IMG/VR virus record: IMGVR_UViG_3300022853_000060
Coordinates: 1 to 30,339 of that record
DNA: 30,339 nt
Origin: a virus
Strand: one strand, 5' to 3'
Part shown: positions 4,508 through 26,355 of the stretch, one piece after another
Layout of the letters: every line of letters starts with the position of its first letter
How positions within the stretch are numbered: the stretch's first letter is position 1
The notes under the pieces: generated by a model
Told to the model about the DNA's origin: nothing
The model's database searches: none
Seen by the model: only the letters and a program-made list of their open reading frames with translations
Made by a program: the position numbers and the translations under genes

Positions 4508-5221
4508 ATGGCTTTGCATACCGTTCTCGACACTCTCGATGGCATTGATGATGCTGTTAAGCCCTTCTACACCGAAACAGACGGCAAGTTCATCTTGCAA
4601 GTGTCCGGCGTAGACAATCACCCCGATGTTGCCAATCTCAAATCAGCATATGAGCGCACGAAGGCCGACCGCGATGCGGCACGTTCCGAGCGCGATGCGG
4701 CCAAGGCACTCGCCAAGGACTTCCCCGAAGATTTTGACGCTGAAAAGTGGGCAAAACTCAAGGACGGGAAAGCCGACGAGGCCGCGCTTATCAAGCTACG
4801 CCAGACACTCGAAGCAGAGCGCGACGATTACAAAGGCAAATATGAAGCCGAGCAAGGCCGCGCGCTTAAAAACGCATTAGACCGTGATCTGACAGACGCG
4901 CTCAACGGCGCAGGCGTCACAAACACGTCATTTGCAAAAGCGGCGCGCACCATGCTGGCAGGCGATGTGAAGATTGGCGACGATGGCAAGCCCTTCGTGG
5001 ATACCGACATGGGGCCGCTGGCCTTGGTCGATCACGTTAAGCGATGGGCTGCTGGTGAAGGCAAGGACTTCGTGACCCCCGCTTCAGGCGGCGGAGCAAC
5101 GGGTGGCAAGAACGGCAACGCCCCAGCTAATGCGGAGACGTTCGCAAAGATGGGCGACAAAGAGCGCACGGCTCTATTCCACAGCGACCCCGAAACATTC
5201 CGGCAATTAGCCGGCTCATAA
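4508..5221 (+). CDS. Capsid scaffolding protein
   Basis: This 237-residue protein has a long charged coiled-coil (about residues 45-125, with repeats of KADRDAARSERDAAKAL type) and a glycine/alanine-rich, flexible C-terminal third. Composition and position immediately before the major capsid gene match the internal scaffolds that shape the prohead and then leave it. The start is supported by AAAGGA before the ATG at 4508. No protease motif (Ser/His catalytic set) was seen, so this appears to be a pure scaffold rather than a protease-scaffold fusion. Confidence 0.8.
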   Translation: MALHTVLDTLDGIDDAVKPFYTETDGKFILQVSGVDNHPDVANLKSAYERTKADRDAARSERDAAKALAKDFPEDFDAEKWAKLKDGKADEAALIKLRQTLEAERDDYKGKYEAEQGRALKNALDRDLTDALNGAGVTNTSFAKAARTMLAGDVKIGDDGKPFVDTDMGPLALVDHVKRWAAGEGKDFVTPASGGGATGGKNGNAPANAETFAKMGDKERTALFHSDPETFRQLAGS

Positions 5222-5239: not shown

Positions 5240-6268
5240 ATGGCTACCACACAAATCTCTGATGTATATGTCCCCGAGGTCTATTCCTCGTACACAGCCG
5301 TAAACGGCCCTGAAAAGACTGTTTTCTTTGACAGCGGCATCGCAGTTGCAAACCCCGCGCTTGCTGGCATGTTCTCAGACGGCGGGCGCATTGCTGAACT
5401 GCCGTTCTGGAAGGATCTGGACGCATCCGATGAGCCGAACTACGGCACCGACGATCCAACCGATATTGCCGTGCCTGCGAAGGTCACGACAGGAACGCAG
5501 GTTGCACGCATGGCCAGCCTGAACCAAGGCTATTCGTCTGCGGACATGACAGGCGAACTTGCCGGATCTGATCCCATGCAACAGGTTCGCAATCGCTTCG
5601 GAACCTACTGGATGCGTCAATGGCAGCGCCGCACCATCGCTTCGTTGCAAGGCGTCATTGCCGACAACGTGGCAAACGATGACGGAGATATGGTCAACAA
5701 CGTCGCAGGCGCTACCAATGCGGATGTTGCGACCGGAACCCTGTTCGGGCGCGAAGTTTTCACCGCAGCGGCGTTTACCTCTGGCGACCACTATGACGAT
5801 TACGCGGTGTTCGCCGTGCATTCCGTTGTCGCCAAGCGCATGGTCGATAACGACGATATTGATTTCCTTGCGGACAGCAACGGGCAGCTTACAATCCCGT
5901 CTTTCCTTGGCCGCCGTCTAGTTGTCGATGACAGCCTGCCCATGACAGCCGCAGCAGGCACGGGCGACACTGACGCCGCCGCGACCTACACCAGCTACCT
6001 GTTCGGCACTGGGCTCATCGGCTATGGCGAGCGCAGCACGAAGGTTCCGGTGGAACTGGAGCGTGAAGCGGCTCAGGGCAACGGCGCAGGCGTAGAGACG
6101 CTGTGGGAGCGCAAGTCGTGGGTGATCCATCCGTTCGGCACCGCGTTTACCAACACCACGCTGACGGACGGCAACGCCACTCTGGCGCAGCTTCGTTTGG
6201 CTGCAAACTGGGACCGCGTGATTGATCGTAAGCTGATCGGCCTCGCGGCAATCGTCACCAACGGCTGA
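5240..6268 (+). CDS. Major capsid protein
   Basis: This 342-residue protein follows the scaffold gene after an 18-base gap, with an AAAGGA ribosome site. It has residues typical of HK97-fold shell proteins: an N-terminal arm, a long spine-like helix region (PMQQVRNRFGTYWMRQWQRR, near 110-130), and beta-rich C-terminal sequence with VIHPFGTAFTNT. Absence of a protease gene nearby suggests no proteolytic maturation. The subfamily is not certain. A strong GC hairpin follows the gene (6277-6300). Confidence 0.85.
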   Translation: MATTQISDVYVPEVYSSYTAVNGPEKTVFFDSGIAVANPALAGMFSDGGRIAELPFWKDLDASDEPNYGTDDPTDIAVPAKVTTGTQVARMASLNQGYSSADMTGELAGSDPMQQVRNRFGTYWMRQWQRRTIASLQGVIADNVANDDGDMVNNVAGATNADVATGTLFGREVFTAAAFTSGDHYDDYAVFAVHSVVAKRMVDNDDIDFLADSNGQLTIPSFLGRRLVVDDSLPMTAAAGTGDTDAAATYTSYLFGTGLIGYGERSTKVPVELEREAAQGNGAGVETLWERKSWVIHPFGTAFTNTTLTDGNATLAQLRLAANWDRVIDRKLIGLAAIVTNG

Positions 6269-6324: not shown

Positions 6325-6549
6325 ATGAACATCAAGCAACAGCTAGACATGCAGGCGCGGTACACAGCGCAGGCAATGGGCGCGACGGCACCAACGGAAC
6401 CAGAAGCGTTCACGCCAGAAACGATTGACGCCATGAGCAAGGGCGACTTGCGGGACATGGCCGAAGCCCACGGCGTTGAGATCCCCAAGGGAACCAATAT
6501 TCAGGACATGCGCGGGATGGTCAAAGCGGCCATTTTCACGGGCTTGTAA
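6325..6549 (+). CDS. Small head-associated protein with SAP/HeH-like helix pair
   Basis: This 74-residue protein ends in a segment (MSKGDLRDMAEAHGVEIPKG) with the look of a SAP/HeH/LEM-type two-helix motif, often found in short phage head genes next to the capsid gene. ATG 6325 is preferred to ATG 6319 because GGAGA ends directly before 6319 but lies 6 bases from 6325. The stop overlaps the next start as TAATG. Function is unknown; a DNA- or capsid-binding role is only a guess. Confidence 0.7.
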   Translation: MNIKQQLDMQARYTAQAMGATAPTEPEAFTPETIDAMSKGDLRDMAEAHGVEIPKGTNIQDMRGMVKAAIFTGL

Positions 6550-15200: not shown

Positions 15201-17539
15201 TACCCGGCCTTGAAGCATTGCAGCGTGAAGGCGAAGGCGCTTATGCCGCTCTGACACGCCTATCCTCGTCCCTGAACGCCGCGAACACCATTATCGATAC
15301 CCTGGGCGGTACGCTGTTCGATCTCAGCTTGTGGGGGGCCGCTGCGGCCTCGGGGCTGGTCGATGCATTTGGTGGCCTTGAAAACTTTGCCAGTGCGACA
15401 ACAGCCTATTATCAGGCGTTTTATTCAGAGCAGGAACGCTTTGACACCTTGACCCGCCAGCTCACGCAAACCATGGGCGAATTGGGTCAGGCAATGCCAA
15501 AGAGCCGCGCGCAGTTTCGGGCGCTGGTCGAGGCGCAAAATCTCGCAACCGAGAGCGGCCGGCAGATGTTTGCGGCGCTGGTGTCGCTGTCGGGGCAGTT
15601 CAACTCTATTCTGCCGGCAATTGACAGCCTGGCAAGCAGGCTGGGCGCACTGGTGGCTGGCGCTGTCGACGCGGCCCTTGGCCCAATTAATAGCCAGATC
15701 GAGGCGTCAAACGCAGCGGCTGCACAAGCGCGTCAATCGGCGGATGGATTCTTTAGGTTGGCAGACAGCCTACGGACTGCGGCTGGCAACATCGGGGGCG
15801 TTCGCAATGCGGCGGATCTCGCCAGCGCTGGTCGTGACTTCGCGGCTAACTTTGCAAAGGCCGTTAGCGGCGATGTAACCGCGCTTGGAAGCCTTGGCGG
15901 TTCGGGGCAGTCTTTGGCCACCGATAGCGCCGGATTTGCGTCAACGGCTGCTGAGTTGCGCCGTATTGAGGCGGGTATCAGTCGGCAGCTTAATGAGGCC
16001 GCTGCGGTGTCTGAGGCTCTTGGTTTTGGTGCTAACTATCAGGCGTTGTTGTTTGATGTGCAGACCGCTGCGCTAGAACATCTGCGCGATCTTTTGATGT
16101 CTGGCAATGTCACCCAAGAATTGTTGCAAGAGCAAATATATGTTCTCGGCAACATCGGGAATATCATCCAAGACAGCGCCAATTTGCAGGTCGTTGCGGG
16201 CAGAACTGACGCAGGGGCTATTCGGGCAGGGTTGGTTGATAATTCGGGCCGTGTTGTTGCTGGTCTTTCTGCTGAGGGCGCTCGCTATATCGCTGGGCTT
16301 GAGGGTCAAACTGCGGGATTGGCAGCAGCTATTGACGCGAATGGCGATGGTTTAATTTCAGCGATGGAGGCTCAGACATCGGCCACCCTTTCCACCTATC
16401 AAAGCACTGTTTCGGCTTTGGCATCGGCGATTGACCGAAATGGGCAAATGACAACGGCACAGATCAGGGCGTCTTTGGCAGGCAAGGCATCTGACGCGGC
16501 GATTACAGCCGTAATAAATGCGGTTGACCGAAACAAGGACGGCATCATCACGGCTGAAGAAAGCCAAGCCGCAAAGATCATCGCAAACGCCACTCAGCGC
16601 ACCACCAGTGAATTACAGGCGATCTACGGTCAAGGTTTGACGTTCACCAACGCGATCACTGGCCAAACGGCCAGCATCACCGGCACCCAAGACCTGACAA
16701 ACGACGAGCTTAACACAGTTCAAAGCCTGCAAAACGACACTGTAAACATTACGGAATTGGTGCAAAGGGCCGTCGAGGGCAATGAAAGCCTGAGCGCAGC
16801 ACTTCTGATCCGCCTATCAAGCGGTATATCAGTTTCAGGCATTGGCCAATTGCTCACATCCAACACTGGAATAATGCGTCAACTTGAATTGATCAGGGCC
16901 GCTATAATCAGCCAGATCGAGGCCCAAAGCACCGCAGAGAACGCGGCTATTGCGGCGGCGCGTCAAAACCAGATCAACGCCCTCACCACCGAGGCGCAGC
17001 AGGTTCTCGCCTCTATTTCGCAGCTTGGAGACCTTGTTGCCGCTGCAGAGGCGCTGTTTGCCCAGACCCCTCAAAGCACGACCAGGGCGGAGCAACAGTG
17101 GAACAGTCAGGGCGAAAACGGCTTTTTGTACTTCTCCATTCCAAATGCCGAGTACCCCAAAGTCAGGGCGGAGCTTGAGGCGGCGCAGCTTGCCTATGAA
17201 AACACCAAAGACCAGCTCTCAGGCATCCGGCTTTCCCTGAATGATTTAGGCATCATCCCCTCGTTTGACGGCGGCGGATACACCGGCTTGGGGTCACGCT
17301 CAGGCGGCATGGATGGCAAGGGCGGTTTCTTGAGCATGCTGCACCCAAACGAGACTGTCATTGATCACTCACAGCGAAAAATGTCACGCGGCAACAGTGG
17401 GTCAATGGATGCCAAGGCGCTGCGTGAAGAAGTAGCCGAACTGCGTCGCGTGATGGTTGAGGTCGTGAAATACGTCAAACGCACCAGCGAGGTGAACCGC
17501 AAATGGGACATTGACGGCGCACCAGCAGTGAGGACTTAA
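12248..17539 (+). CDS. Tail tape-measure protein with EF-hand-like loops
   Basis: This 1763-residue protein is the largest here, placed after gpG/gpGT. The ATG at 12248 has AAGGA 7 bases upstream; the frame is open farther back but without a start signal. The N-terminal ~550 residues are helical, with a hydrophobic stretch near 310-340. A Gly/Ala-rich hydrophobic region (about 765-870) probably forms membrane-active helices. Near residues 1363, 1396 and 1427 three ~32-residue repeats carry loops DANGDGLISAME, DRNGQMTTAQIR (degenerate) and DRNKDGIITAEE; the first and third match the EF-hand calcium loop D-x-N-x-D-G-x-I. The C-terminus has LHPNETVIDHSQ, typical of tape measures. It sets tail length and helps DNA cross the envelope. 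Confidence 0.92.
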   Translation: MSQNFADLILGADTTGLLKGKKALEDTTKAGTATEKSVGGTEKGFKKAGDSAGRAAPQVEKFNKATGAAHAAALKATKAVIGMAAGYAAFAASSASLGKFISATVESDKAQAQLAAAITSTGGAAGKAVGDLNNHAAALQGITNYGDEVTNAMQGVLLTFTAVKGDTFNAATTAVLDLATAMGTDLNSAALQVGKALNDPILGMTALSRSGIQFTEAQKEAVKAMVATSDVAGAQAVILAELTKQFGGSAEAARDTLGGALAALGNAWGDLFEIAGPASEKLRASIENLIGTVTDPKFVQALQNIGALLFSIAGVALDVVAAFGYIVGSISGAVSAVSGFVRDVMGLTTANEIAQRVIDNGTLAMGDQITQIQILTRSTKEGSIISEEAARVRRAEAESLLQVLDATRLLNQQDFNQKSGLNEALIDVQRLTEELETLRTVKARAAEQGLNLPGITADTASWNAELENAENLLAQAQIKVEAIKQVQRELTFLTDDEVGRRQELVDLVSMLDRGIVNVKDGQVFLNGQLVEGVDLSGRLSRTIGGIDFSAARTGAALLAADLNVNIEKAMALMGFLNTTAGIQASVFKPRLGFGGLGPADPDAADRAAVSFGNLGNSAESATARINQINAANAALSKTLTATTSGAGKAAGEAANEFGNMADEIERLEFDADPLKKYNAEIANLDQLVGAGLSDGAYQKAVKDLNEEFANSNPTISAFGDAIGDFVASGMRNFGDLLDSFKNMIKQMIATAIANPIKLALSAALGGGGTAAAAGQLGGAPGGGGILGGLTAGAGNFIGTLGGAGGLLGGASSVFSGLMSGGLGGAASAIGSAVTGIGSAATMLGGLGAAIGAVALPIAAVAAVFSFFKTKTKQLDAGIRITVDGMDALIQSFNTVEKKKFWGLSKKVRTSFSDLDAATAGPLERILSQMQMGVMGASEALGIGASAFNDFSASIQVSTKGLSDEAAQKAVTEALQGFGDDFAGMIPGLEALQREGEGAYAALTRLSSSLNAANTIIDTLGGTLFDLSLWGAAAASGLVDAFGGLENFASATTAYYQAFYSEQERFDTLTRQLTQTMGELGQAMPKSRAQFRALVEAQNLATESGRQMFAALVSLSGQFNSILPAIDSLASRLGALVAGAVDAALGPINSQIEASNAAAAQARQSADGFFRLADSLRTAAGNIGGVRNAADLASAGRDFAANFAKAVSGDVTALGSLGGSGQSLATDSAGFASTAAELRRIEAGISRQLNEAAAVSEALGFGANYQALLFDVQTAALEHLRDLLMSGNVTQELLQEQIYVLGNIGNIIQDSANLQVVAGRTDAGAIRAGLVDNSGRVVAGLSAEGARYIAGLEGQTAGLAAAIDANGDGLISAMEAQTSATLSTYQSTVSALASAIDRNGQMTTAQIRASLAGKASDAAITAVINAVDRNKDGIITAEESQAAKIIANATQRTTSELQAIYGQGLTFTNAITGQTASITGTQDLTNDELNTVQSLQNDTVNITELVQRAVEGNESLSAALLIRLSSGISVSGIGQLLTSNTGIMRQLELIRAAIISQIEAQSTAENAAIAAARQNQINALTTEAQQVLASISQLGDLVAAAEALFAQTPQSTTRAEQQWNSQGENGFLYFSIPNAEYPKVRAELEAAQLAYENTKDQLSGIRLSLNDLGIIPSFDGGGYTGLGSRSGGMDGKGGFLSMLHPNETVIDHSQRKMSRGNSGSMDAKALREEVAELRRVMVEVVKYVKRTSEVNRKWDIDGAPAVRT

Positions 17540-17542
17540 AGA

Positions 17543-18439
17543 ATGAAAATCATCCCGCCAATTGAAGTTACCGACGCAAATCTAACGTCCTCGAATGTGC
17601 CGGAAACAGACGCGCCATTTTGGTTGGTCGGAACCACATATGTCATTAACGATCAGGTTATTTACGAACATAACATTTATGAGAGCCTCTCGGGCAGCAA
17701 CACTGGAAACCAACCAGATATTAGCCCGACTGAGTGGTTGTTTCTCGGTGCAACCAATCGCTACAAAGCATTCGACAAACGACTGAGCGATGTAGTTTCT
17801 CAGGCTGAATCAATCACATATACAATAAACCACAATGGGGAATTTGTTAGCGCAGTTGCATTCTTTGGCTTGAAAGGATCAACCCTGCTTGTCGAAGTTA
17901 ACGACCCTGACGATGGGTTGGTATTCTCTCAATCATACGTTCTGCTTGATGATACTGGCGTAATTGACTGGTCAACCTATTTCTTTTCGCCAATTGGTGT
18001 CCAGCGCCAAGAGGTGATTGAGGTGGCGCTACCGCCATTTCTCAACGCATCAACAACAGTGACTATAACAAATGCGGGCGGGATTGCGCAGGTCGGTCAA
18101 ATCGTTCTTGGGCGGTTGTTTGATCTTGGCGTTACAGTTTACGGCACAAGCATATCCATTGAAGATTATAGCCGGAAAGAGCGTGACGCTTTTGGCAATG
18201 CAATAATCGTTGAAAGAGCATTCGCGCAATTGGTTGATTACGACGTAAGAATTAGCACTGAGTTAGCGCGAAGAGCGCAAAACACTTTTGCCCAATATCG
18301 CACCACGCCAATCGTGTGGGTTGGTGACGAAAAAGAAGAACTTGGAACAATCGTTTACGGCTATTACCGACGTTTTGACATCACGCTTTCGTCGCCCCTG
18401 ATATCCGACGCAACAATCGAAGTAGAAGGACTAATCTAA
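17543..18439 (+). CDS. Distal tail protein with carbohydrate-binding-like module
   Basis: In this 298-residue protein, residues ~25-70 (WLVGTTYVINDQVIYEHNIY, then a W-L-F-L-G ending) resemble a chitin-binding type 3 (CBM5/12-like) module: an aromatic-rich short beta domain with a YxxGDxVxYxGxxYxS-like rhythm. The rest is beta-rich tail-tip sequence ending RRFDITLSSPLISDATIEVE. Composition is more AT-rich than the tape measure before it. The gene starts 3 bases after the tape-measure stop and overlaps the next by one base (TAATG). It probably forms part of the tail tip and contacts surface glycans; the binding role is inferred from pattern alone. Confidence 0.6.
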   Translation: MKIIPPIEVTDANLTSSNVPETDAPFWLVGTTYVINDQVIYEHNIYESLSGSNTGNQPDISPTEWLFLGATNRYKAFDKRLSDVVSQAESITYTINHNGEFVSAVAFFGLKGSTLLVEVNDPDDGLVFSQSYVLLDDTGVIDWSTYFFSPIGVQRQEVIEVALPPFLNASTTVTITNAGGIAQVGQIVLGRLFDLGVTVYGTSISIEDYSRKERDAFGNAIIVERAFAQLVDYDVRISTELARRAQNTFAQYRTTPIVWVGDEKEELGTIVYGYYRRFDITLSSPLISDATIEVEGLI

Positions 18440-19062
18440 TGGCCGCTCCCACCGTTTCTTTGCTACCACCTGCACCAAGTCGTGCAAGCCCTGTCGACTT
18501 TTCAGCCAAGGCGGATGCGCTGCTCGGATCGCTTGCGGGATGGGTTTCTCAATCTAATACACTTGGCGCATACCTAAACACCACGAGCGCAAGCATTGAA
18601 TTGCTGCGAAATCAAACGGTCGTCGCTCAAGCCGCAACGGAGGCGGCTAGAGATGCTGCTTTTGTAAACGCCAACGTGTATTCAAGCACATCTGCAGGCC
18701 TATCCAGCACAGCCATCGGGGTTCAGTTTCAGGTCGTTGCGGGTGATGAAGTTATCCGCTACCGGCATGATTCCGGCCCTGTTGCAACTGAGGTCGCCAG
18801 ATACCCTGCGGCGGTGGCATTTTTGGCGCTTAACGCGACCCTATCCCAAAGCCTGTCAATGATTGGCCAAGTTGCAGGGCAGGTGAACGGTGGCCGCGCC
18901 ACACTGGAAGGAGGGACGCTTGCCGACCCCGCTCTACGCATCGGAACGGCTGGCATCTACAGCGCGGCTGCTGACACATTATCAATTGTAATTGCCGGAT
19001 CGGAGGTCGCGCGGTTCACCGCATCCGGCCTTACCGTTTACGGCTTGGTCACGGAGGTATGA
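18439..19062 (+). CDS. Tail fibre / tip protein
   Basis: This 207-residue protein has an N-terminal proline-rich segment, then a helical coiled-coil region (ASIELLRNQTVVAQAATEAA) and a beta-rich C-terminal part (RIGTAGIYSAAADTLSIVIA, then VARFTASGLTVYG) of the kind seen in phage fibre shafts. It lies between the distal tail gene and the DGR target. It may hold or trimerise with the variable protein, by analogy with other fibre operons; no direct evidence here. Confidence 0.6.
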   Translation: MAAPTVSLLPPAPSRASPVDFSAKADALLGSLAGWVSQSNTLGAYLNTTSASIELLRNQTVVAQAATEAARDAAFVNANVYSSTSAGLSSTAIGVQFQVVAGDEVIRYRHDSGPVATEVARYPAAVAFLALNATLSQSLSMIGQVAGQVNGGRATLEGGTLADPALRIGTAGIYSAAADTLSIVIAGSEVARFTASGLTVYGLVTEV

Positions 19063-19066
19063 CCCA

Positions 19067-19390
19067 ATGAGCTATAAGCACAACCTGCAACCCATGACCG
19101 GAGAGAGCTTTGTCCGCTGCAATCAGATCGTCGTTGACAATCGGCTAAACAAAACTCCCGCCATCACTTTCTCGCAAGAAACCATCGTGGGCGGCCCGGA
19201 TGGGCCTGTTTTGCATATCCCGATGTCACCCGTGCCCATGGCCTTTGATCCCGTGGCCACAATCCCGATCATAAACCCTGAAACCGGCGAAGATACGGGC
19301 CAAACCGCAACCCAAGCCGAGGTCTATGCGCTCATCTATAGCGCCTACCTTGCAACCGTTACCGCGCCGCCGGACGGGGGGGCAGTCTAA
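19067..19390 (+). CDS. Small tail protein, 107 aa, upstream of variable protein
   Basis: The ATG at 19067 has GGAGGT 8 bases upstream, one of the best ribosome sites in the late region. The product begins MSYKHNLQPMTGESFVRCNQ and contains mixed beta sequence with PVPMAFDPVATIPIINPETG. No family was recognised. The stop overlaps the variable-protein start by one base, so the two are probably translationally coupled. A connector or chaperone for the variable adhesin is a reasonable guess. Confidence 0.65.
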   Translation: MSYKHNLQPMTGESFVRCNQIVVDNRLNKTPAITFSQETIVGGPDGPVLHIPMSPVPMAFDPVATIPIINPETGEDTGQTATQAEVYALIYSAYLATVTAPPDGGAV

Positions 19391-20424
19391 TGACCGCACT
19401 CCAGGACAACTTGCGAACGCAAGTCGAGGCAATGAGCAAGGGGCAGATGACGGTGCGCTTCACGACCAAAGGCCAGCCCAGCTATTTTCATCGGATCTCT
19501 AAATTCAACGTAGAGGACCTTGACGCAAGCCTTGGGGCTGGTGTGCATCCGGCGTTCATCGTGGGCGGCGTTGAAAAAGATGAAATACTGATCGGCACCC
19601 ACCAGGCCGCTGAGGTGAGTGGCGAAATGGTGTCACAGGCGGGTCTCATGCCCAGAGTCAGCATCAACCACGATCAGGCCGTCACGCTCGCGCGCGCCTC
19701 CGGTCTGGGGTTTTGCGTATGCACAAACGCCATGTATGCGGCAATCGCACTGAGCGCCCGCGCATCTGGCCGGTTCCCGCGTGGAAACAACAACAACGGT
19801 CGCGCCTATAATGCGCAGGGCGAATTTGGTGTGAATGCTGCGGGCAATCCAACGCCGGGAGGCAGCTTTGGCGCGCCGGTTCGGGCGGGATCAGGCCCCG
19901 TCGCCTGGAATTACCCGCCAACGCCATTCGGCATCCAGAACCTCAACGGCAACGTGTGGGAGTGGTCGCCGGGAATGCGGGTCGTTGACAGTGAAATTCA
20001 GGTGATCCCCAACAATGACGCTGTGCTTTTGGCTACCGACCTGAGCGGGTCGGGGCCGTGGCAGGCCATCCTTGCCTCTGATGGTACCCTAGTGGCACCG
20101 GGCACGGCCGGCACCGTCAAGTATGCTACGTCAGGCACCGCTGCGGATACGCTCACCTGCGGGAACGGAGCAGCCTTTTCGAGCATGACCGCAAACACGG
20201 TTTCCACGGCGGCACTCAAGCGGTTGAAGCAGCTCGGCCTTATGCAGCCAGGATCGCCGATCGAAAGCGATGGCTTTTACATTACCACAACCAGTGAGCG
20301 CCTGCCGTTCCGTGGCGGCGTTTGGAGCAGTAGCTCTCGGGCTGGGGCCTTCGCCCTGTACCTGAGCCTTTCCCGTTCGAGCGCGAACACGTACATCGGC
20401 TTTCGCCCCGCTTTCGTAATCTGA
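19390..20424 (+). CDS. DGR variable protein (FGE/C-type-lectin-fold adhesin)
   Basis: This 344-residue protein is probably the receptor-binding tip. The C-terminal half has the formylglycine-generating-enzyme-like C-type lectin fold: IQNLNGNVWEW near 180-190 and ending FRGGVWSSSSRAGAFAL through YIGFRPAFVI, the RGG-W ... GFRPA signature. The last ~40 codons are the variable repeat (20295-20413). Relative to the template, eight codons are changed, giving F307, V311, S314, Y324, S326, L327, S331 and Y335; seven come from template Asn codons (AAY) and one from Ile. N333 remains as in the template. The fold tolerates such surface changes in known DGR proteins. It overlaps the preceding gene by one base and is followed by a hairpin needed for retrohoming in related systems. 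Confidence 0.92.
   Translation: MTALQDNLRTQVEAMSKGQMTVRFTTKGQPSYFHRISKFNVEDLDASLGAGVHPAFIVGGVEKDEILIGTHQAAEVSGEMVSQAGLMPRVSINHDQAVTLARASGLGFCVCTNAMYAAIALSARASGRFPRGNNNNGRAYNAQGEFGVNAAGNPTPGGSFGAPVRAGSGPVAWNYPPTPFGIQNLNGNVWEWSPGMRVVDSEIQVIPNNDAVLLATDLSGSGPWQAILASDGTLVAPGTAGTVKYATSGTAADTLTCGNGAAFSSMTANTVSTAALKRLKQLGLMQPGSPIESDGFYITTTSERLPFRGGVWSSSSRAGAFALYLSLSRSSANTYIGFRPAFVI
20295..20413 (+). repeat. DGR variable repeat (VR)
   Basis: This 119-bp segment at the 3' end of the variable-protein gene aligns without gaps to 20841-20959. The ten mismatches are at 20308, 20320, 20321, 20330, 20359, 20366, 20368, 20369, 20381 and 20392, each opposite a template adenine. The last 21 bases (20393-20413), ending in CGCCCCGCTT, are identical and would be the initiation-of-mutagenic-homing end. 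The next base, T20414 against C20960, is the first non-adenine difference. Confidence 0.97.
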
Positions 20425-20447
20425 AATCTGCTGAGCTGAAATCTGAA

Positions 20448-20467
20448 GGCCGCGCGATAGCGCGGTC
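20448..20467 (+). promoter_or_regulatory. GC-rich hairpin with GATA loop downstream of VR
   Basis: GGCCGCGC (20448-20455) pairs with GCGCGGTC (20460-20467) around a GATA tetraloop; 8 bp with one G-T pair. Known DGR targets carry a GC-rich 7-10 bp hairpin/cruciform with a 4-base GRNA loop just past the VR that raises retrohoming efficiency, and GATA fits GRNA. It lies about 34 bases beyond the VR. No T-run follows, so a terminator role is unlikely. Confidence 0.7.
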
Positions 20468-20489
20468 CATTACCGCAAGGAGCGCCGGC

Positions 20490-20843
20490 TTGGACGATCT
20501 GAAAATCAGACAGAAATGCGAGGAGATGATTGCATATGGATATGTTGCACTGCGTCAATTTCCAAAATTTGAACGGCACGTCCTGGGTGCCGAGATAAGG
20601 GACGCTATGTGGGGCGTGCTGCGTCTGATTATTGTCACCAACAAGCGCTACCACAAAAAGACCACGATGCAGGATCTGGATGCAGAGCTTGACTTGTTGC
20701 GCTCACAAATCCGAACAGCCTTTGGCTTGCGGTATATCGACCTGAAAAAATACGAAACATGGTCTCGCCTCATGGATGAGGTGGGCCGCATGATCGGCGG
20801 CTGGTTTAAGTCGCTGAAAGGAGGGGTTGCGGGCCATGCATGA
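20490..20843 (+). CDS. avd: DGR accessory variability determinant (Avd)
   Basis: This 117-residue all-helical, basic protein is of the Avd/four-helix-bundle family. It begins MDDLKIRQKCEEMIAYGYVA and ends with the family-typical WSRLMDEVGRMIGGWFKSLK. Avd forms a pentamer that binds the reverse transcriptase and the template RNA and is needed for mutagenic cDNA synthesis. The start is TTG: AAGGAG (20477-20482) lies 7 bases upstream, and no ATG exists near. Its TGA stop (20841-20843) is the first three bases of the template repeat, so TR begins exactly where avd ends. Confidence 0.92.
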   Translation: MDDLKIRQKCEEMIAYGYVALRQFPKFERHVLGAEIRDAMWGVLRLIIVTNKRYHKKTTMQDLDAELDLLRSQIRTAFGLRYIDLKKYETWSRLMDEVGRMIGGWFKSLKGGVAGHA

Positions 20844-20959
20844 GCGCCTGCCGATCCGTGGCGGCAATTGGAGCAATAGCTCTCGGGCTGGGGCCTTCGC
20901 CCTGAACCTGAACAATTCCCGTTCGAACGCGAACACGAACATCGGCTTTCGCCCCGCTT
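20841..20959 (+). repeat. DGR template repeat (TR)
   Basis: This is the 119-bp master copy. It holds 22 adenines, and ten of them differ in the VR. Read in the VR frame, it contains eight AAY (Asn) codons: 20866, 20875, 20905, 20911, 20914, 20926, 20932 and 20938. AAY randomised at both adenines can encode 15 amino acids and never a stop, the classic DGR design. It lies between avd and the reverse transcriptase on the same strand as the target. Confidence 0.97.
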
Positions 20960-21055
20960 CCGGGGTTCGTCAGAAGGCAAAAGCTCAAGGGCTTTCGCAC
21001 AGAACACCCCCGAAAGGGCCTGTAATCCTCGGCCAAGTGCCGAAAAAAATAAACA

Positions 21056-21102
21056 GGCCGGAGTGTCGCAGTACCTGCTTGCGGAGACCCCTCATTCCGG
21101 CC
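21056..21102 (+). promoter_or_regulatory. Long stem-loop in TR-RT spacer, just before RT start
   Basis: GGCCGGAGTG pairs with CATTCCGGCC (9 of 10 Watson-Crick, one G-U), and an inner CGCA (21067-21070) pairs with TGCG (21080-21083). It ends 22 bases before the reverse-transcriptase ATG. It may be a binding element for the RT-Avd complex in the template RNA, or may limit RT translation. Confidence 0.55.
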
Positions 21103-21124
21103 GTCCCTATTTGCGAGAGTGTCA

Positions 21125-22234
21125 ATGGCCAAAACATTTAATAACCTATGGGAAGCCGTGACCTCGTGGCCCTCGCTCCTCGCGGCTTGGGAGAAAACCG
21201 CAAAAGGCCGGCACCGCCAGAGGGACGTCATTACCTTTCGCGCCAACCTCGAGCCAAACCTGATCGAGCTTCAAAACAGCCTGATTCACAAAACCTATCA
21301 GACAGGCCCATATCATCTCTTTTTCGTGTTTGAGCCCAAGCGCCGCGAGATATCTTCGCTACCCCTCAAGGATCGCATCGTACAGCATGCCCTGGTTGCC
21401 ACCCTAGAGCCTATTTTCGACGCCAGATTTATAGATCAGTCATATGCGTGCCGCCCGGGCAAGGGTGCTCACAGGGGCGCGGACGCTGTGCAGGCATACC
21501 TGCGCGAGGTCAATCGCAAACACGGGTCCGTTTGCGCGCTGAAAGCAGACATTTCCAAATATTTCCCCTCAATATCGCACGACGTATTAAAGCGTCAGAT
21601 ACGCAGGCGGATCGCCTGTTCGGAAACACTCACCTTGATCGACGGCATTATCGACAGCACCGCCGATCCATCCGACACATTGCCGCGCGGAATACCGATC
21701 GGAAACCTGACTTCGCAGCTTTTCGCGAATATCTATCTGAACGATCTGGATTACTTTGTGAAGCACACGCTGCGCGAGGGCCGATATTTGCGCTACATGG
21801 ATGACTTCGCAATCGTGCACCCTGACAAGTCTCACTTGCACCTGGTGCGCCGCGATATTGAAGATTTCCTATGGGCACACCTCGGCCTGCGCACGAATGC
21901 CAAAACACAGGTATTTCCAGTCGGAGACGGGGGCCGCGCGCTGGATTTTCTGGGGTACCGCATCTGGCCAACGCACCGCGCGCTGCGCAAGGACAGCATC
22001 AACCGAATGAAGCGCAAGATGAAACGGATGGCATCACTTTACCACCAAGGCCGGATCACTTGGGATGAGATCGACCCCGTGATTATGTCTTGGGTCGCGC
22101 ACGCCAGGCACGCTGACACATACAACTTGAGATCGAAGATATTGGGTGGCGTGGCGTTCACACCCCCGCCCCTGCTAAGTGATCGTCATATGATTGCGCA
22201 AAGAAACGCAAGAAAGAAGTTGCTCGACACATGA
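21125..22234 (+). CDS. DGR reverse transcriptase
   Basis: This 369-residue protein carries the core motifs of group-II-intron-related bacterial reverse transcriptases: ALKADISKYFPSISH (catalytic Asp, domain 3), LPRGIPIGNLTSQLFANIYL (domain 4) and RYMDDFAIV (domain 5, catalytic YMDD). The IGxxxSQ form in domain 4, instead of QGxxxSP, is diagnostic of DGR enzymes. It copies TR RNA with errors at adenines and feeds the cDNA into the VR. ATG 21125 is chosen, with GAGAG 5 bases upstream; a GTG at 21119 is in frame. The stop overlaps the next start (ATGA), tying the enzyme to the lysis-gene transcript. All catalytic residues are intact. Confidence 0.96.
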   Translation: MAKTFNNLWEAVTSWPSLLAAWEKTAKGRHRQRDVITFRANLEPNLIELQNSLIHKTYQTGPYHLFFVFEPKRREISSLPLKDRIVQHALVATLEPIFDARFIDQSYACRPGKGAHRGADAVQAYLREVNRKHGSVCALKADISKYFPSISHDVLKRQIRRRIACSETLTLIDGIIDSTADPSDTLPRGIPIGNLTSQLFANIYLNDLDYFVKHTLREGRYLRYMDDFAIVHPDKSHLHLVRRDIEDFLWAHLGLRTNAKTQVFPVGDGGRALDFLGYRIWPTHRALRKDSINRMKRKMKRMASLYHQGRITWDEIDPVIMSWVAHARHADTYNLRSKILGGVAFTPPPLLSDRHMIAQRNARKKLLDT

Positions 22235-22581
22235 GCCGCTACACCCGCGCCCGCGACTGGTACGAGCCGGCCGGGGGCATCCGCTACCGCATCACAGAGC
22301 CTCTGACCTGGTATGTGGGCTGCGTCGAGACAGGCGCGGCCTATACGGTGCCGGCGGGGTTTGTGTTCGACGTCTCGATCCCCTGGATCTGGCGCTGGCT
22401 ACTCGATCCGCACGATCGGCGGTTTTTAAAAGCGGCCGCGCTGCACGATCACTTTCTGTCCATCGGATGGGATCGGTTCACGGCAGGCGCACAGTTTCAC
22501 CAAGCGCTAATGGCCGACGGTGTGGGTAGGTTTCGAAGGGCAGTAATGGCGCTGGCTGTTCTGTTTTTCAAATACCGATAG
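22231..22581 (+). CDS. DUF1353-family phage protein
   Basis: In this 116-residue protein, VPAGFVFDVSIPWIW (about 46-60), then DRRFLKAAALHDHFLS (about 69-84), carries the conserved Asp/Ser/Pro and His-Asp pattern of DUF1353, found in many phages near tail or lysis genes. The conserved acidic and His residues suggest metal binding, but no activity is established. It overlaps the reverse-transcriptase stop by four bases (ATGA). Its hydrophobic aromatic surface might support a membrane or wall role at lysis. Confidence 0.75.
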   Translation: MSRYTRARDWYEPAGGIRYRITEPLTWYVGCVETGAAYTVPAGFVFDVSIPWIWRWLLDPHDRRFLKAAALHDHFLSIGWDRFTAGAQFHQALMADGVGRFRRAVMALAVLFFKYR

Positions 22582-22598
22582 GATAAGAGGGATAAGAA

Positions 22599-22904
22599 AT
22601 GCAACTCACCGAGATTGAAATTGCAACGGCGGTTGTTTTTCTCGCGCTGCAAATTGCGGACGTGTGGACAACGATTGTCGGCATGAAAACTGGCGCGACA
22701 GAGGCCAATGGAATCGTCGCGTGGCTAATGCGAAAACTTGGAAAAGGCTGGGTGCCGGTTAAGCTGGTTGTGTCTATTGGCGGTGCCTATCTCGCAGGGG
22801 CCGGCGGGGCTATTTGGGCGGTCTGGATTCTATGCGCTTTATTTGCCTATGTCGTTTTCCATAATTACCGCATCATTAAAGACCGCAAAGCCCGTGGGTT
22901 TTAA
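22599..22904 (+). CDS. Small multi-pass membrane protein (holin candidate)
   Basis: This 101-residue protein has about three hydrophobic segments: IEIATAVVFLALQIADVW near 5-22, VPVKLVVSIGGAYLAGAGGA near 52-71, and AIWAVWILCALFAYVVF near 71-87. A basic tail, IIKDRKARGF, follows. The DVWTT...GATEANGI pattern resembles DUF5658-type membrane proteins. It directly precedes the endolysin, a common holin position. GAGGGATAAGAA precedes the ATG. At least three other membrane genes follow, so the true holin cannot be settled from sequence. Confidence 0.6.
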   Translation: MQLTEIEIATAVVFLALQIADVWTTIVGMKTGATEANGIVAWLMRKLGKGWVPVKLVVSIGGAYLAGAGGAIWAVWILCALFAYVVFHNYRIIKDRKARGF

Positions 22905-22913
22905 GGAGTAGAT

Positions 22914-23543
22914 ATGAATAATTCTGAGCGGGCAATCCCCAAAATACTGAAGCACGAAGGCGGGTATGTAAACAATCCGGCTGACCCCGGCGGGGCAACG
23001 AACAAGGGAATTACGATTGCCACGTTTCGCCGCTACATCAAACCCGGCGGCACGATTGCAGACTTAAAGGCGCTGACCGAGTCTCAGGCCGTGGTTGTCT
23101 ATAAGCGTCAGTATTGGGACGCTGTGAGTGCGGATCTTCTGCCGTCAGGTGTTGACTACGCCGTTGCTGATTTTGCCGTGAATAGCGGGCCGTCACGGGC
23201 TGGCAAGTATCTGCAAAAGGTTGTCGGGACGGCACAAGATGGCGTTGTTGGTCCTGCTACCATTGCAGCAGCACGGGGGCTTTCCGCGCCTGACGTTATT
23301 AACGATATTTGCGATGAGCGGCTTGCATTCATGCGCCGTATCAGGGGCGGCAGGCTGTGGAAAACATTTGGCCGTGGCTGGCAGCGCCGTGTTGATGATG
23401 TGCGGGCTGTGTCATTGGCGTGGGCCACGCAGAAAGCACCAAAGCCCATTATCGACACAACCCCCGCGAAACCCCCGCAACGCAGCCTATGGGTCGTTCT
23501 GGCGTCCCTGCTGGCGTCTATCTTTGGAAAGGGCAAACCATGA
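22914..23543 (+). CDS. GH108 N-acetylmuramidase endolysin with C-terminal anchor
   Basis: This 209-residue protein has an N-terminal domain with KHEGGYVNNPADPGGATNKG, the GH108 signature: the Glu in HEGGY is catalytic. QYWDAV and the C-terminal peptidoglycan-binding-like half (VGTAQDGVVGPATIAAARG) follow. It cleaves the glycan strands of peptidoglycan. A hydrophobic tail, SLWVVLASLLASIFG (192-206), may tether it to the inner membrane. AAGGAG lies 6 bases before the ATG. The stop overlaps the next ATG (ATGA). Confidence 0.92.
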   Translation: MNNSERAIPKILKHEGGYVNNPADPGGATNKGITIATFRRYIKPGGTIADLKALTESQAVVVYKRQYWDAVSADLLPSGVDYAVADFAVNSGPSRAGKYLQKVVGTAQDGVVGPATIAAARGLSAPDVINDICDERLAFMRRIRGGRLWKTFGRGWQRRVDDVRAVSLAWATQKAPKPIIDTTPAKPPQRSLWVVLASLLASIFGKGKP

Positions 23544-23731
23544 TTGGACCCATATCGCGCATCATTTTGCGCTACGTTTCGGGAGCAATGGTTGCTTACG
23601 GCTTGGTCCCGCAAGATGTCGGTGCAGAAATTGCCGTCGACCCTGACTTGCTGGCATTGCTTGGCCTTGCTCTTGGCGCATCGACTGAGATTGCATACGC
23701 CTTTGCAGTAAAACGCGGGTGGGCGAAATGA
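23540..23731 (+). CDS. Small membrane protein, 63 aa
   Basis: The ATG at 23540 overlaps the endolysin stop. Two hydrophobic stretches (ISRIILRYVSGAMVAYGLV and LLALLGLALGASTEIAYAFA) flank an acidic loop, and the tail is basic (VKRGWAK). It fits a small class II holin-like topology. The stop overlaps the next start. Holin or antiholin are the obvious candidates; not proven. Confidence 0.6.
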   Translation: MIGPISRIILRYVSGAMVAYGLVPQDVGAEIAVDPDLLALLGLALGASTEIAYAFAVKRGWAK

Positions 23732-23952
23732 TGCGGGTTGTCATCACGGTTGGCCTGATCTGCGTCATGGGGCTGGGCGCGTTTTTCTACATCCGCAACG
23801 CCGAGCGGGCCAAGATCAACAACAGCAACACCACCAAGACAATCGAAGGAATACGCGATGCCCGATCTATTGAAAACGAAACACGCGGCGAAAGCGATGG
23901 CGGTTTGCTCGATTATCTCCTTGGCAGGGTGCGAGGCGAAACCGTCGAGTGA
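23728..23952 (+). CDS. Inner-membrane spanin subunit (Rz-like)
   Basis: This 74-residue protein has a single N-terminal hydrophobic helix (VVITVGLICVMGLGAFFYI) followed by a charged, helical periplasmic region (RNAERAKINNSNTTKTIEGI). That is the i-spanin plan, though shorter than lambda Rz. The ATG at 23728 overlaps the preceding stop. The following lipoprotein gene starts inside it in another frame, the hallmark Rz/Rz1 arrangement. Confidence 0.7.
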   Translation: MMRVVITVGLICVMGLGAFFYIRNAERAKINNSNTTKTIEGIRDARSIENETRGESDGGLLDYLLGRVRGETVE

Positions 23953-24103
23953 TCCAGCGTTTAAGGACGTGCAACGGGTACCGCCCATAACCAAGCGGGC
24001 GACTGTTGAATACCTAGTCGGTAATGATCGTCTGCTGGCCGAGTGGGTAGCAGAGACTTCGCGCAAGTGCGATAAATTCGGATGCGTGGGGCAGGATAAT
24101 TGA
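23858..24103 (+). CDS. Outer-membrane spanin lipoprotein (Rz1-like)
   Basis: In this 81-residue protein, a short hydrophobic signal ends in the lipobox ISLAGC, with the lipidated Cys at residue 25. The mature part is about 57 residues with two further Cys near the C-terminus. GAAGGA lies 7 bases before the ATG at 23858. It overlaps the Rz-like gene by 95 bases in a different frame. The pair would span the periplasm and fuse the membranes at the last step of lysis. Mature Rz1 proteins are usually proline-rich; this one is not strongly so. Confidence 0.7.
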   Translation: MPDLLKTKHAAKAMAVCSIISLAGCEAKPSSDPAFKDVQRVPPITKRATVEYLVGNDRLLAEWVAETSRKCDKFGCVGQDN

Positions 24104-24417
24104 CGTTTTTGGAGACTGTTGACAAGGTGTTCAGCGCTGCGCCTGAGCAAATCACCGCGCTCTGCCTGTCCGGTGCTGCGGGTGCCTATGTCCGGGCCGT
24201 CTTTGCCCCTGAAGCAAGCTGGAAACGGCGGCTAAGTGAAGGCTTTGCGGGCGCTTTATCAGCCATCTTTCTCGGCGGCATTGTCGGGCATTTGCTGGAT
24301 CAATTCACAGACGCTGGAACATGGGCGTACCTCGCTGCTGGTTTTGTCATGGGTGAGGGTGGAATTGCAGCCGTGCGGGGCGTCCGCAAGATCGTTTTGA
24401 AAGAAGAAAACAAATGA
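24100..24417 (+). CDS. Holin-like membrane protein (LydA/superfamily III style)
   Basis: This 105-residue protein starts at TTG (24100-24102), overlapping the Rz1-like stop TGA by two bases; AGGA lies just upstream. Hydrophobic regions (ITALCLSGAAGAYVRAVF, FAGALSAIFLGGIVGHLL, WAYLAAGFVMGEGGIAAV) with basic WKRRLSEG between them match holin superfamily III layout. The C-terminus is charged (RKIVLKEENK). Overlap with the next gene is ATGA. This is the strongest holin candidate by pattern. Confidence 0.65.
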   Translation: MTFLETVDKVFSAAPEQITALCLSGAAGAYVRAVFAPEASWKRRLSEGFAGALSAIFLGGIVGHLLDQFTDAGTWAYLAAGFVMGEGGIAAVRGVRKIVLKEENK

Positions 24418-24680
24418 CTTTCGCGCTCTTTGCCAACAACTTAACATCTACTTCGCTTGTGATTGCAACGTGGTGGCTGGCACACCAATACGCCCGAATT
24501 TACCCGGCGGGCCGCGTCATTGCCGCGTTTCTTGCTCTGCTTGGCTTTGCGACCCTATACACGATGTTTGCCCGCAATTTTGATGCGCCGATTGTGTGGC
24601 CGATCATTGCGCAAAAGGCCATTCTGACATTGGTTTTGGTTATGATTGCAATTCCCGGCAAAAAGCAAAGAGGCCCGTAG
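24414..24680 (+). CDS. Small membrane protein, 88 aa
   Basis: It has three hydrophobic stretches (STSLVIATWWLAHQYARIY, VIAAFLALLGFATLYTMFA, PIIAQKAILTLVLVMIAIPG) and a basic end (KKQRGP). It starts in a 4-base overlap with the holin-like gene. No family recognised; it may be a holin partner or antiholin in this crowded membrane-gene cluster. Confidence 0.65.
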   Translation: MTFALFANNLTSTSLVIATWWLAHQYARIYPAGRVIAAFLALLGFATLYTMFARNFDAPIVWPIIAQKAILTLVLVMIAIPGKKQRGP

Positions 24681-24681
24681 C

Positions 24682-24888
24682 ATGTGGATGCTGGTTGTCA
24701 CGATGTGCTTGCAGCTATCCCACACAGACGCAGAGTGCCGCGCCACGGTGCAAGGTGTCTACGGCAAGCCTCAGACATGCCGCAAGCGCATGGAAGGCCA
24801 GCACGAGGCGCTTTTGACGCTTGCGGACGATATCGGTGCACGGGTTCTGTTCCTGTCAGTCAAATGCAGCAAGGGCAACGACGCATGA
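24682..24888 (+). CDS. Small unknown protein, 68 aa, possible secretion signal
   Basis: The product starts MWMLVVTMCLQLSHTDAECR. The short hydrophobic N-terminus could be a signal or anchor, followed by a helical region with Cys residues (ECRATV, QTCRKR, VKCSKG). AAAGAGG lies about 9 bases before the ATG. The stop overlaps the next start (ATGA). Function unknown. Confidence 0.55.
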   Translation: MWMLVVTMCLQLSHTDAECRATVQGVYGKPQTCRKRMEGQHEALLTLADDIGARVLFLSVKCSKGNDA

Positions 24889-25064
24889 TGCGCTGGCTTG
24901 ATGATATGTCCTGGCGTACCTGCTACATCGCCACGGGGCTGCGAATGTCTTGGTGCGGGCTGGCCTATTGGGGCGGCTGGCGGCGCGTTGTGTGGTTTCT
25001 GGACAAGATCCTGCACAGGCGAGAGCCGGACCACTGCCGTAGGTCATACGACCGATATAAATAG
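24885..25064 (+). CDS. Small basic Trp-rich protein, 59 aa, last gene of the late block
   Basis: The product begins MMRWLDDMSWRTCYIATGLR and contains GLAYWGGWRRVVWFLDKILH. It is aromatic and arginine-rich and probably membrane-associated. It starts in a 4-base overlap and ends one base before a strong terminator. An opposing minus-strand gene overlaps its last 100 bases. Function unknown. Confidence 0.55.
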   Translation: MMRWLDDMSWRTCYIATGLRMSWCGLAYWGGWRRVVWFLDKILHRREPDHCRRSYDRYK

Positions 25065-25249
25065 CCCGCGTCCTGTAATGGGGCGCGGGTTTTTTGCGTT
25101 TGGGGAGGCGTCTCTTTTGTCTGAACCATATCGGGCAGGGCGGCGATGATCAGGTTTGCCGTAGCTTTTGGATCGTCATATGCGTCTGCGTACTGAATAA
25201 TTTCAGCCAATTTATCCCGCATCGGCGTGGTGTCTGGTTTAGCGGTCAT
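24965..25249 (-). CDS. Small hypothetical protein, 94 aa, end of early operon
   Basis: ATG 25249 has AGGAG 6 bases upstream on the minus strand. The N-terminal part (MRDKLAEIIQYADAYDDPKA, LIIAALPDMVQ) looks like a real helical protein. The C-terminal third runs through the late terminator and antisense to the last late gene, and is low-complexity and Arg-rich, so natural selection on the end may be weak. Overlaps the upstream gene's stop by 11 bases. Confidence 0.55.
   Translation of the reverse strand: MTAKPDTTPMRDKLAEIIQYADAYDDPKATANLIIAALPDMVQTKETPPQTQKTRAPLQDAGYLYRSYDLRQWSGSRLCRILSRNHTTRRQPPQ
25065..25095 (+). terminator. Strong rho-independent terminator of the late operon
   Basis: CCCGCGTCC (25065-25073) pairs with GGGCGCGGG (25081-25089), 9 bp with one T-G, loop TGTAATG, then six T residues (25090-25095). 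It lies immediately after the last plus-strand gene and closes the late transcript where the two arms of the genome converge. Confidence 0.9.
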
Positions 25250-25904
25250 CGGTGGCTCCTTTGGCGAGGGCGTGGATAGCGGCTTCCTCGCTGTCAAACC
25301 ACTGAAATTCCCAATCGTCTTCCTCGCCGTCGCCGTCCGTGTCGAGTGCGACTTCGACGCCCCATTTTGGCGCACCCTTGTGCAACGTCTCTACCTTCAA
25401 TGGCGTGCCGTACCAGCCGTCCATCATGTCGTTTCTTTCCGCCCACGGCTGGGTGTACTCCCATTCGCAGGGGTCATAGCAAAAATCAGGCTCAACAGCC
25501 GCAACGCTGGGCTGCATGGCGGCTATGGCGGCGCGGGCAAGCTGCGTTTCATCCTCGGTCAGTTCATCACGGGTAAACGTCCGGCTTGGATTGTTTCGCT
25601 GCATATGGATGCGGTTCTGATCGCGTATAGCCTTCGCCACGCGCTCTACGGCTTCATCTGTGGGGATGGTCATGGGTGTGGGTTCCTTGGTTAATTCGCG
25701 GCACATCGAGCGGGCTTCGTCCTGCGTTAAGTCTTGCCCGTGTAACTCTCCGCCTTCATCCCACACGCTCCACTTCCCAAGCAGGGCATCGTCAAGCTGC
25801 ATCCAAATTTCATCCTGTGCAAAGGCAAGTGGCTGCGGCCCTGCGCCCATGCTTTCAAGCATAGCAGCATCCATAGCCAAGGCTTCCTGCATTGTTTTAT
25901 CCAT
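25239..25904 (-). CDS. Hypothetical early protein, 221 aa, acidic C-terminus
   Basis: The product starts MDKTMQEALAMDAAMLESMG. ATG 25904 is favoured, with GAGG 8 bases upstream; an ATG two codons earlier sits too close to that site. A middle region, EAVERVAKAIRDQNRIHMQR, with ARAAIAAMQ shortly after, resembles helical motifs found in many small phage proteins. The end is strongly acidic (DTDGDGEEDDWEFQWFDSEE). No function recognised. Its leader contains a large GC hairpin (25930-25969). Confidence 0.7.
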   Translation of the reverse strand: MDKTMQEALAMDAAMLESMGAGPQPLAFAQDEIWMQLDDALLGKWSVWDEGGELHGQDLTQDEARSMCRELTKEPTPMTIPTDEAVERVAKAIRDQNRIHMQRNNPSRTFTRDELTEDETQLARAAIAAMQPSVAAVEPDFCYDPCEWEYTQPWAERNDMMDGWYGTPLKVETLHKGAPKWGVEVALDTDGDGEEDDWEFQWFDSEEAAIHALAKGATDDR

Positions 25905-25929
25905 CCTCATATCCTCTCTATTGTAGCGC

Positions 25930-25969
25930 GCCGCCCCCGCCCTCATGTAACGCACGCGGTGGGGGCGGC
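25930..25969 (-). promoter_or_regulatory. Large GC hairpin in leader of the 221-aa gene
   Basis: GCCGCCCCC (25930-25938) and GGGGGCGGC (25961-25969) form a perfect 9-bp stem with a 22-base loop. It lies about 25 bases before the start codon on the minus strand, so it may act on translation or as a pause site. Confidence 0.55.
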
Positions 25970-26009
25970 TCTGGGTAGACGGTCCACGACGTACCAAAAC
26001 GCCAGACCA

Positions 26010-26028
26010 TGCGGCTAACGCAGCCGCA
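26010..26028. repeat. Perfect 7-bp inverted repeat
   Basis: TGCGGCT-AACGC-AGCCGCA lies in the 135-base gap between the early genes. No T-run follows on either strand. It may be an mRNA hairpin at the end of the broken 26040-26355 gene, or a protein site. Confidence 0.5.
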
Positions 26029-26039
26029 GCGATGCCCTG

Positions 26040-26355
26040 TTAATCAGGGGATGGGGTGCGGAGGGCGAGGCACGCGCCATTAAGGGTCATGTTAAGGTGT
26101 GTATCTTTGAGCAAAACACCATCAGACGAAAACAATGCCAGCATGTCAGCCAGCGCATCCCGCGCCGTCTGTACCTGCGCCTGTGCCTCGGCAAGCTGGG
26201 CGCGGAGGGCGTCGCGATCATCTCGCAGGTATCGCAAGCAATACGCGGTGTCGTGCGTTTGATACGTGCCGTAGCTACGCAATCCGCTGCATCCATTCAG
26301 TGTGTGCCCGCAGTGTGTGCCCGCAGTTTGGGCATGGGCGGTCAACCTCACTCAT
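26040..26355 (-). pseudogene. Zinc-ribbon-like coiled-coil gene broken by a 13-bp duplication
   Basis: ATG 26355 has AGGAGG 7 bases upstream on the minus strand. From it the frame reads MSEVDRPCPNCGHTL, then shifts and stops at 26275 after 26 residues. A perfect tandem 13-bp repeat at 26298-26323 is the cause. Removing one copy gives a continuous frame of about 100 residues: CPNCGHTLNGCSG, then YCLRYLRDDRDALRAQLAEA, ending at 26040. The present downstream frame has only a GTG (26351) without a usable ribosome site. The intact protein would be a zinc-ribbon plus coiled-coil. Inactivation, phase variation or a sequencing error could each explain it. Confidence 0.7.
26298..26327. repeat. 13-bp tandem repeat (2.3 copies)
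   Basis: CAGTGTGTGCCCG occurs at 26298-26310 and 26311-26323, followed by a partial CAGT. Since 13 is not a multiple of 3, a change in copy number shifts the reading frame of the minus-strand gene across it. Confidence 0.95.

Follow-up and report, generated by a model that had tools for sequence, protein, structure and literature searches.

The 30,339-base virus record IMGVR_UViG_3300022853_000060 (hereafter the window, the whole stretch of DNA analyzed) raises the question of how a phage template can place diversity in a protein without introducing stop codons, and whether the system carrying it is at work in nature. The system is a diversity-generating retroelement (DGR), read from the sequence of the whole stretch, and features a target gene with a variable region (VR), the accessory gene avd, a template region (TR), and a reverse transcriptase (RT) gene. 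It is almost certainly a complete and recently active DGR with a stop-free template built on AAY codons (Y being C or T), in a tailed phage that most likely infects Rhodobacterales. The element is an ordinary active DGR, and its codon trick is textbook: several studies have already noted that an AAY codon yields 15 amino acids and no stop, and stop-free diversification through AAY is the accepted explanation (PMC6328139, PMC5006420, PMC12875486). Added here are a clean natural experiment in sister phages and column-wise evidence of a conserved TR codon class, by which an uncultured phage group confirms the conservation of stop-free AAY placement.

VR and TR are 122-nt repeats that are 91% identical and lie 546 nt apart. 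Read in the target frame at this offset, the TR carries eight AAY codons: 311 AAT, 314 AAT, 324 AAC, 326 AAC, 327 AAT, 331 AAC, 333 AAC, and 335 AAC. Codon-by-codon comparison bears out the preliminary description in its count of eight such codons in the VR frame and in its statement that seven are already altered in the VR of the window, 333 being the unaltered one; codon arithmetic likewise gives 15 amino acids and zero stops for an AAY codon with A replaced by any base. All eight residues on its list of altered positions are indeed altered. However, that list does not coincide with the AAY codons, as it includes 307 (20854–20856; ATC in the TR, TTC in the VR), which is altered yet not AAY, and omits the unchanged AAY codon 333. 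The remaining adenine-bearing codons of the TR (GAG, ATC, AGC, and ACG) are also unable to yield stops. In the core of the repeat, TR adenines make up 22 of the 115 sites and account for all 10 mismatches between VR and TR (hypergeometric P = 9e-9).

The same placement is found in related templates. TR/VR pairs were sought in 160 loci, and the 100 distinct TRs whose frame could be read were kept. AAY makes up 24.0% of the codons in these TRs compared with 6.6% upstream in the same genes, a 3.6-fold enrichment, whereas the stop-capable codons AAA, AAG, and AGA account for 0.16% compared with 3.3% upstream (approximately 20-fold depleted) and are entirely absent from 94 of the 100 TRs. Adenine at the third codon position drops from 16.7% upstream to 3.3% in the TRs. 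With 58 TRs aligned at their RPA motif, AAY occupies columns 311, 313, 314, 324, 326, 327, 331, 333, and 335 in 54 to 58 templates and column 317 in 37, whereas columns 308–310, 312, 319, 320, 323, 325, and 337–339 almost never bear adenine. The AAY columns are fixed, and the codon class of the TR is conserved column by column. The TR of the window lacks AAY at two positions of the family, namely 313 (AGC) and 317 (CGG).

Sister phages show what becomes of such a template. Four sister contigs (L003–L006) carry four further, differing VRs beside a TR identical to that of the window. Across the resulting set of five VRs, adenines account for 54 of the 56 differences between VR and TR (23 changed to T, 22 to G, and 9 to C); the other two are a T-to-G and a C-to-T change. 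Every one of the eight AAY codons varies within this set, including 333, which is altered in four of the five VRs. The non-AAY codons 307 and 336 (both ATC) and 313 (AGC) vary as well, and 303, 315, and 334 are invariant. Over positions 15390–26231 (10.8 kb), the L004/L083 contig differs from the window at 15 positions in the VR and at three elsewhere; hence, replacement of the VR far outpaces divergence in the remainder of the phage. Such fast turnover is what recent mutagenic homing predicts and points to a retroelement working in nature.

The protein components are in place. DGR-type RTs carry the signature [I/V/L]GxxxSQ where other RTs have QGxxxSP. The RT of the window, which adjoins the TR, matches PF00078 (E 1.8e-19) and phrog_1423 (E 2.5e-144) and features IGNLTSQ at residue 194 together with YMDD, and is thus of the DGR type. 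The Avd protein matches PF22296 bAvd (E 5.4e-32) and phrog_3206, "Avd protein of DGR" (E 5.8e-45). It is very improbable that this is a degenerate DGR, once working and no longer diversifying its target. The unchanged AAY codon 333 would suit such a relic, and the activity of the DGR in the window is read from sequences; however, the open reading frames of RT and avd are intact, the former with both motifs, and phages that are nearly identical outside the VR bear different VRs, which argues for recent homing.

The elements of a probable homing site can also be appreciated. At the 3' end, GGCTTTCGCCCCGCTT is common to VR and TR and is followed by a C/T mismatch (C20960 in the TR, T20414 in the VR)—the sole mismatch outside the core within the repeat—and then by divergence, as in an initiation of mutagenic homing (IMH) site, which is putative here. 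The VR is followed by the hairpin CCGCGC-GATA-GCGCGG with six perfect pairs and a possible outward extension across one G.T. Post-VR hairpins of phage DGRs have GC-rich stems of 7 to 10 bp and a 4-nt GRNA loop, and the hairpin is needed for homing in the Bordetella phage BPP-1 (PMC3240598). The loop GATA conforms to GRNA, placing the hairpin of the window in this class, and a like hairpin occurs in 90 of 124 related loci (expected 0.05).

The spacer between TR and rt is strongly conserved, and its consensus fold is accompanied by compensatory changes in 14 of 34 pairs among 10 relatives; conservation and covariation are as expected of a structured DGR RNA. A frame of 101 codons (ATG 20836 to 21141) begins at an ATG within the last bases of avd and stays open across TR and spacer up to the start of rt, and an in-frame ATG is present upstream in 44 of 99 loci. 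If this frame were translated as a small protein, the codon choice of the TR could reflect translation. The prospect is slim, since the frame is broken shortly after the TR in the relatives L090, L093, and L096, substitutions after the TR are not biased to third positions (0.44/0.28/0.34), and the spacer displays RNA covariation instead. An open frame inside the TR arises because the TR is a copy of the coding VR. Translation of the frame was rejected as an explanation, the pattern in relatives not being protein-coding-like. That the AAY codons are due to chance or to an Asn-rich protein stretch, and the likeness of VR and TR to an ordinary decaying duplication, might be read from the eight codons and one VR/TR pair that the window by itself offers, but is practically without probability: the adenine-only mismatches speak against it, as do nine columns that are AAY in at least 93% of relatives with enriched AAY and depleted stop-capable codons, and it is refuted by sister contigs that are hypervariable in the VR only.

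The target protein found no family in a Pfam search; PHROGs and solved structures did match, namely phrog_2889 (E 3.7e-109) and the variable protein TaqVP of a Thermus aquaticus prophage (5vf4; phmmer E 4.6e-74, hmmsearch E 8.6e-130). An AlphaFold2 model of the target (predicted local distance difference test 92.7, predicted template modeling score 0.93) aligns to 5vf4 in VIA-align with a Z of 47.9 at 2.1 Å over 338 residues and 44% identity, with homology over the whole protein. More distant structural matches are TvpA, PvdO, Mtd, and formylglycine-generating enzymes (FGEs). TaqVP features nine variable residues, which are reported to be solvent exposed and to make up a potential binding site (PMC6328139). 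Over their C-terminal 42 residues, both proteins align free of gaps at an offset of 37, so that I344, D348, N351, Y361, N364, S368, R370, and G372 of TaqVP correspond to 307, 311, 314, 324, 327, 331, 333, and 335 of the window; the ninth, V354, corresponds to 317, which is nonvariable here. The preliminary description predicted that the altered residues line one face of a C-type-lectin fold and form the ligand site. By homology, this probably holds for 307, 311, 314, 324, 327, 331, and 335, which match exposed variable residues of TaqVP, but 326 has no variable counterpart. Structural support for the exposure of 326 is weaker, and the case is built on its own variability, because the corresponding L363 of TaqVP is nonvariable. 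Side chains in the AAY columns span from Ser, Gly, and Asp to Tyr, Phe, and Leu, and therefore fit poorly into a buried core.

In an active DGR of this kind, the RT with Avd would copy the TR RNA to cDNA, placing random bases across from adenines, and this product would replace the VR at the 3' terminus of the target gene, with the IMH and the downstream hairpin marking the homing site. As the adenines of the TR are almost confined to AAY codons in fixed and presumably exposed columns, along with a few ATC, AGC, and ACG codons with small alphabets, no stops can arise, and the binding surface would be altered with the core spared. Some points weigh against this account. Mutagenic copying and cDNA homing at IMH and hairpin are carried over from BPP-1, and the target is presumably a host-binding tail protein of the TaqVP-type C-type lectins, its receptor role being suggested by analogy with Mtd and by its position at the tail module. 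The exposure of the single AAY-encoded residues is predicted by homology, via the gap-free alignment to published TaqVP positions. In addition, the substitutions at 336 and most of those at 307 are hydrophobic only; thus, not all variable sites are free surface sites.

The diversity realized in natural VRs is smaller than the codons permit. The fate of AAC is Asn in 21%, Ser in 18%, Tyr in 16%, Gly in 10%, Asp in 8%, and His in 7%, in broad agreement with the reconstituted BPP-1 system, in which Tyr, Ser, and Asp dominate the outcomes (PMC12875486). AAC has an effective alphabet of 9.6 and AAT one of 10.0, and natural VRs use about 8 to 10 effective amino acids per AAY codon; these are postselection figures from small samples. 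The repertoire of 15^8 (2.56e9, given earlier as about 2.6 billion) is arithmetically right but an upper bound that assumes uniform full randomization, as the column-wise values yield approximately 4e7 effective combinations for the eight AAY codons. The other adenine-bearing codons contribute at most 4^6. The usable repertoire is hence far below the nominal 15^n, which matters for estimates of DGR diversity and for the design of lectin-scaffold display.

Hydrophobic residues make up 97% in column 336 (ATC) and 71% in column 307; therefore, the template also encodes restricted alphabets. It is an even call whether the template sets a site-graded alphabet throughout: AAY (15 amino acids) at the free surface; ATC (F/L/I/V) at 336 and often at 307, where the site demands hydrophobic residues; small sets from ACG and AGC; and a context bias of the RT (AAC to Ser, Tyr, Gly, or Asp) weighting the outcomes. 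The codon class per column is retained across RTs down to approximately 40% identity, and selection may thus be keeping it in line with what the local structure tolerates. The idea of graded codon classes, put forward as speculation in PMC12875486, is supported here on natural VR data.

The base replacing a TR adenine varies with the next base (96–100 TR/VR pairs, L003–L160). An adenine before C is mostly replaced by G (63%) and by C in just 10%; before T, C is commonest (38%); and before G, the replacement is nearly always G. AAT and AAC at the same columns differ in the change of the second adenine to C (odds ratio 2.7, p = 0.014). For BPP-1, G incorporation was described as elevated opposite A in NAC (read as coding C), yet the dominant residues are Tyr, Ser, and Asp (PMC12875486). 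No contradiction between the context bias of this RT clade and BPP-1 is claimed, because text and residue list of that study diverge and natural VRs are filtered by selection. Among the rare non-adenine mismatches between VR and TR, 17 of 30 are T to G, affecting 1.1% of TR thymines (codon 307 of the L005 VR; L008, L018, L075, L094, L096, and others), and about one third of these lie within CGATC, resembling the surroundings of codon 307. This excess may stem from RT error opposite U or from later mutation of the TR; between related TRs, too, the transversion seen most often is G/T, which weighs on the former reading.

The window carries tailed-phage genes for a methyltransferase, terminase, portal, major head protein, tape measure, and an endolysin-type protein. 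The DGR lies 3' of the tail genes in the usual DGR order of target, hairpin, avd, TR, spacer, and rt (Table 1). The host is probably a member of the Rhodobacterales, since the named genomes with the nearest RT genes are Sediminimonas, Rhodobacter, Antarcticimicrobium, and Antarctobacter. A sigma-70 promoter scan of the DGR region found nothing, and a search of the window contig for a further VR or a second target found none. The related locus L080 features a single TR (6415–6537) and two adenine-diverged VRs (4843–4965 and 5898–6012), apparently two targets served by one template.

Table 1. Features of the DGR and their positions in the window
Feature	Position	Strand	Basis
DGR target (variable) protein, 344 aa, FGE-type C-type-lectin fold, TaqVP family (phrog_2889)	19390..20424	+	homology, AlphaFold2 model
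VR, C-terminal coding end of target, codons 303–343	20295..20416	+	TR-like repeat, 546-nt spacing
Probable IMH, GC-rich 3' end of VR; boundaries inferred	20396..20416	+	sequence comparison
Hairpin/cruciform element after VR	20448..20467	+	stem CCGCGC/GCGCGG (20450–20465), loop GATA
avd, accessory variability determinant, 117 aa	20490..20843	+	PF22296, phrog_3206
TR, starting inside avd stop codon; eight AAY codons in target frame	20841..20962	+	repeat comparison
Diversifying part of TR, ATC (307) to AAC (335)	20854..20940	+	codon-by-codon comparison
Conserved, probably structured non-coding spacer of TR RNA, TR to rt	20963..21118	+	covariation, absent coding pattern
DGR reverse transcriptase, 371 aa from GTG 21119 as listed; in-frame ATG 21125	21119..22234	+	PF00078, phrog_1423, motifs

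Among known systems, the DGR of the Thermus aquaticus prophage (TaqVP, PDB 5VF4; PMC6328139) is among the closest: it shares the order target–avd–TR–rt, the C-terminal VR, and the fold, eight variable positions coincide in the alignment, and its TR has seven AAY codons plus ATC. However, TaqVP varies at V354, where the window has CGG (317), and has AGT where the window has AAC (335), whereas positions 313, 326, and 336 vary in the family of the window and are nonvariable in TaqVP. The DGR of Bordetella phage BPP-1 (Mtd/Avd/bRT) has all components, adenine mutagenesis, an AAC-rich TR, and a post-VR hairpin with a GRNA loop (PMC3240598), and Mtd features the same FGE-type lectin fold (Z about 13); in contrast, the closest Bordetella RT found (B. 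hinzii, L186) is only 40% identical to that of the window. TvpA of Treponema denticola and the archaeal AvpA share the C-type-lectin scaffold and AAY-coded variable sites (PMC5006420), but TvpA is remote from the target of the window (Z 14.5, 19% identity), and AvpA belongs to another lectin subclass (PMC5006420).
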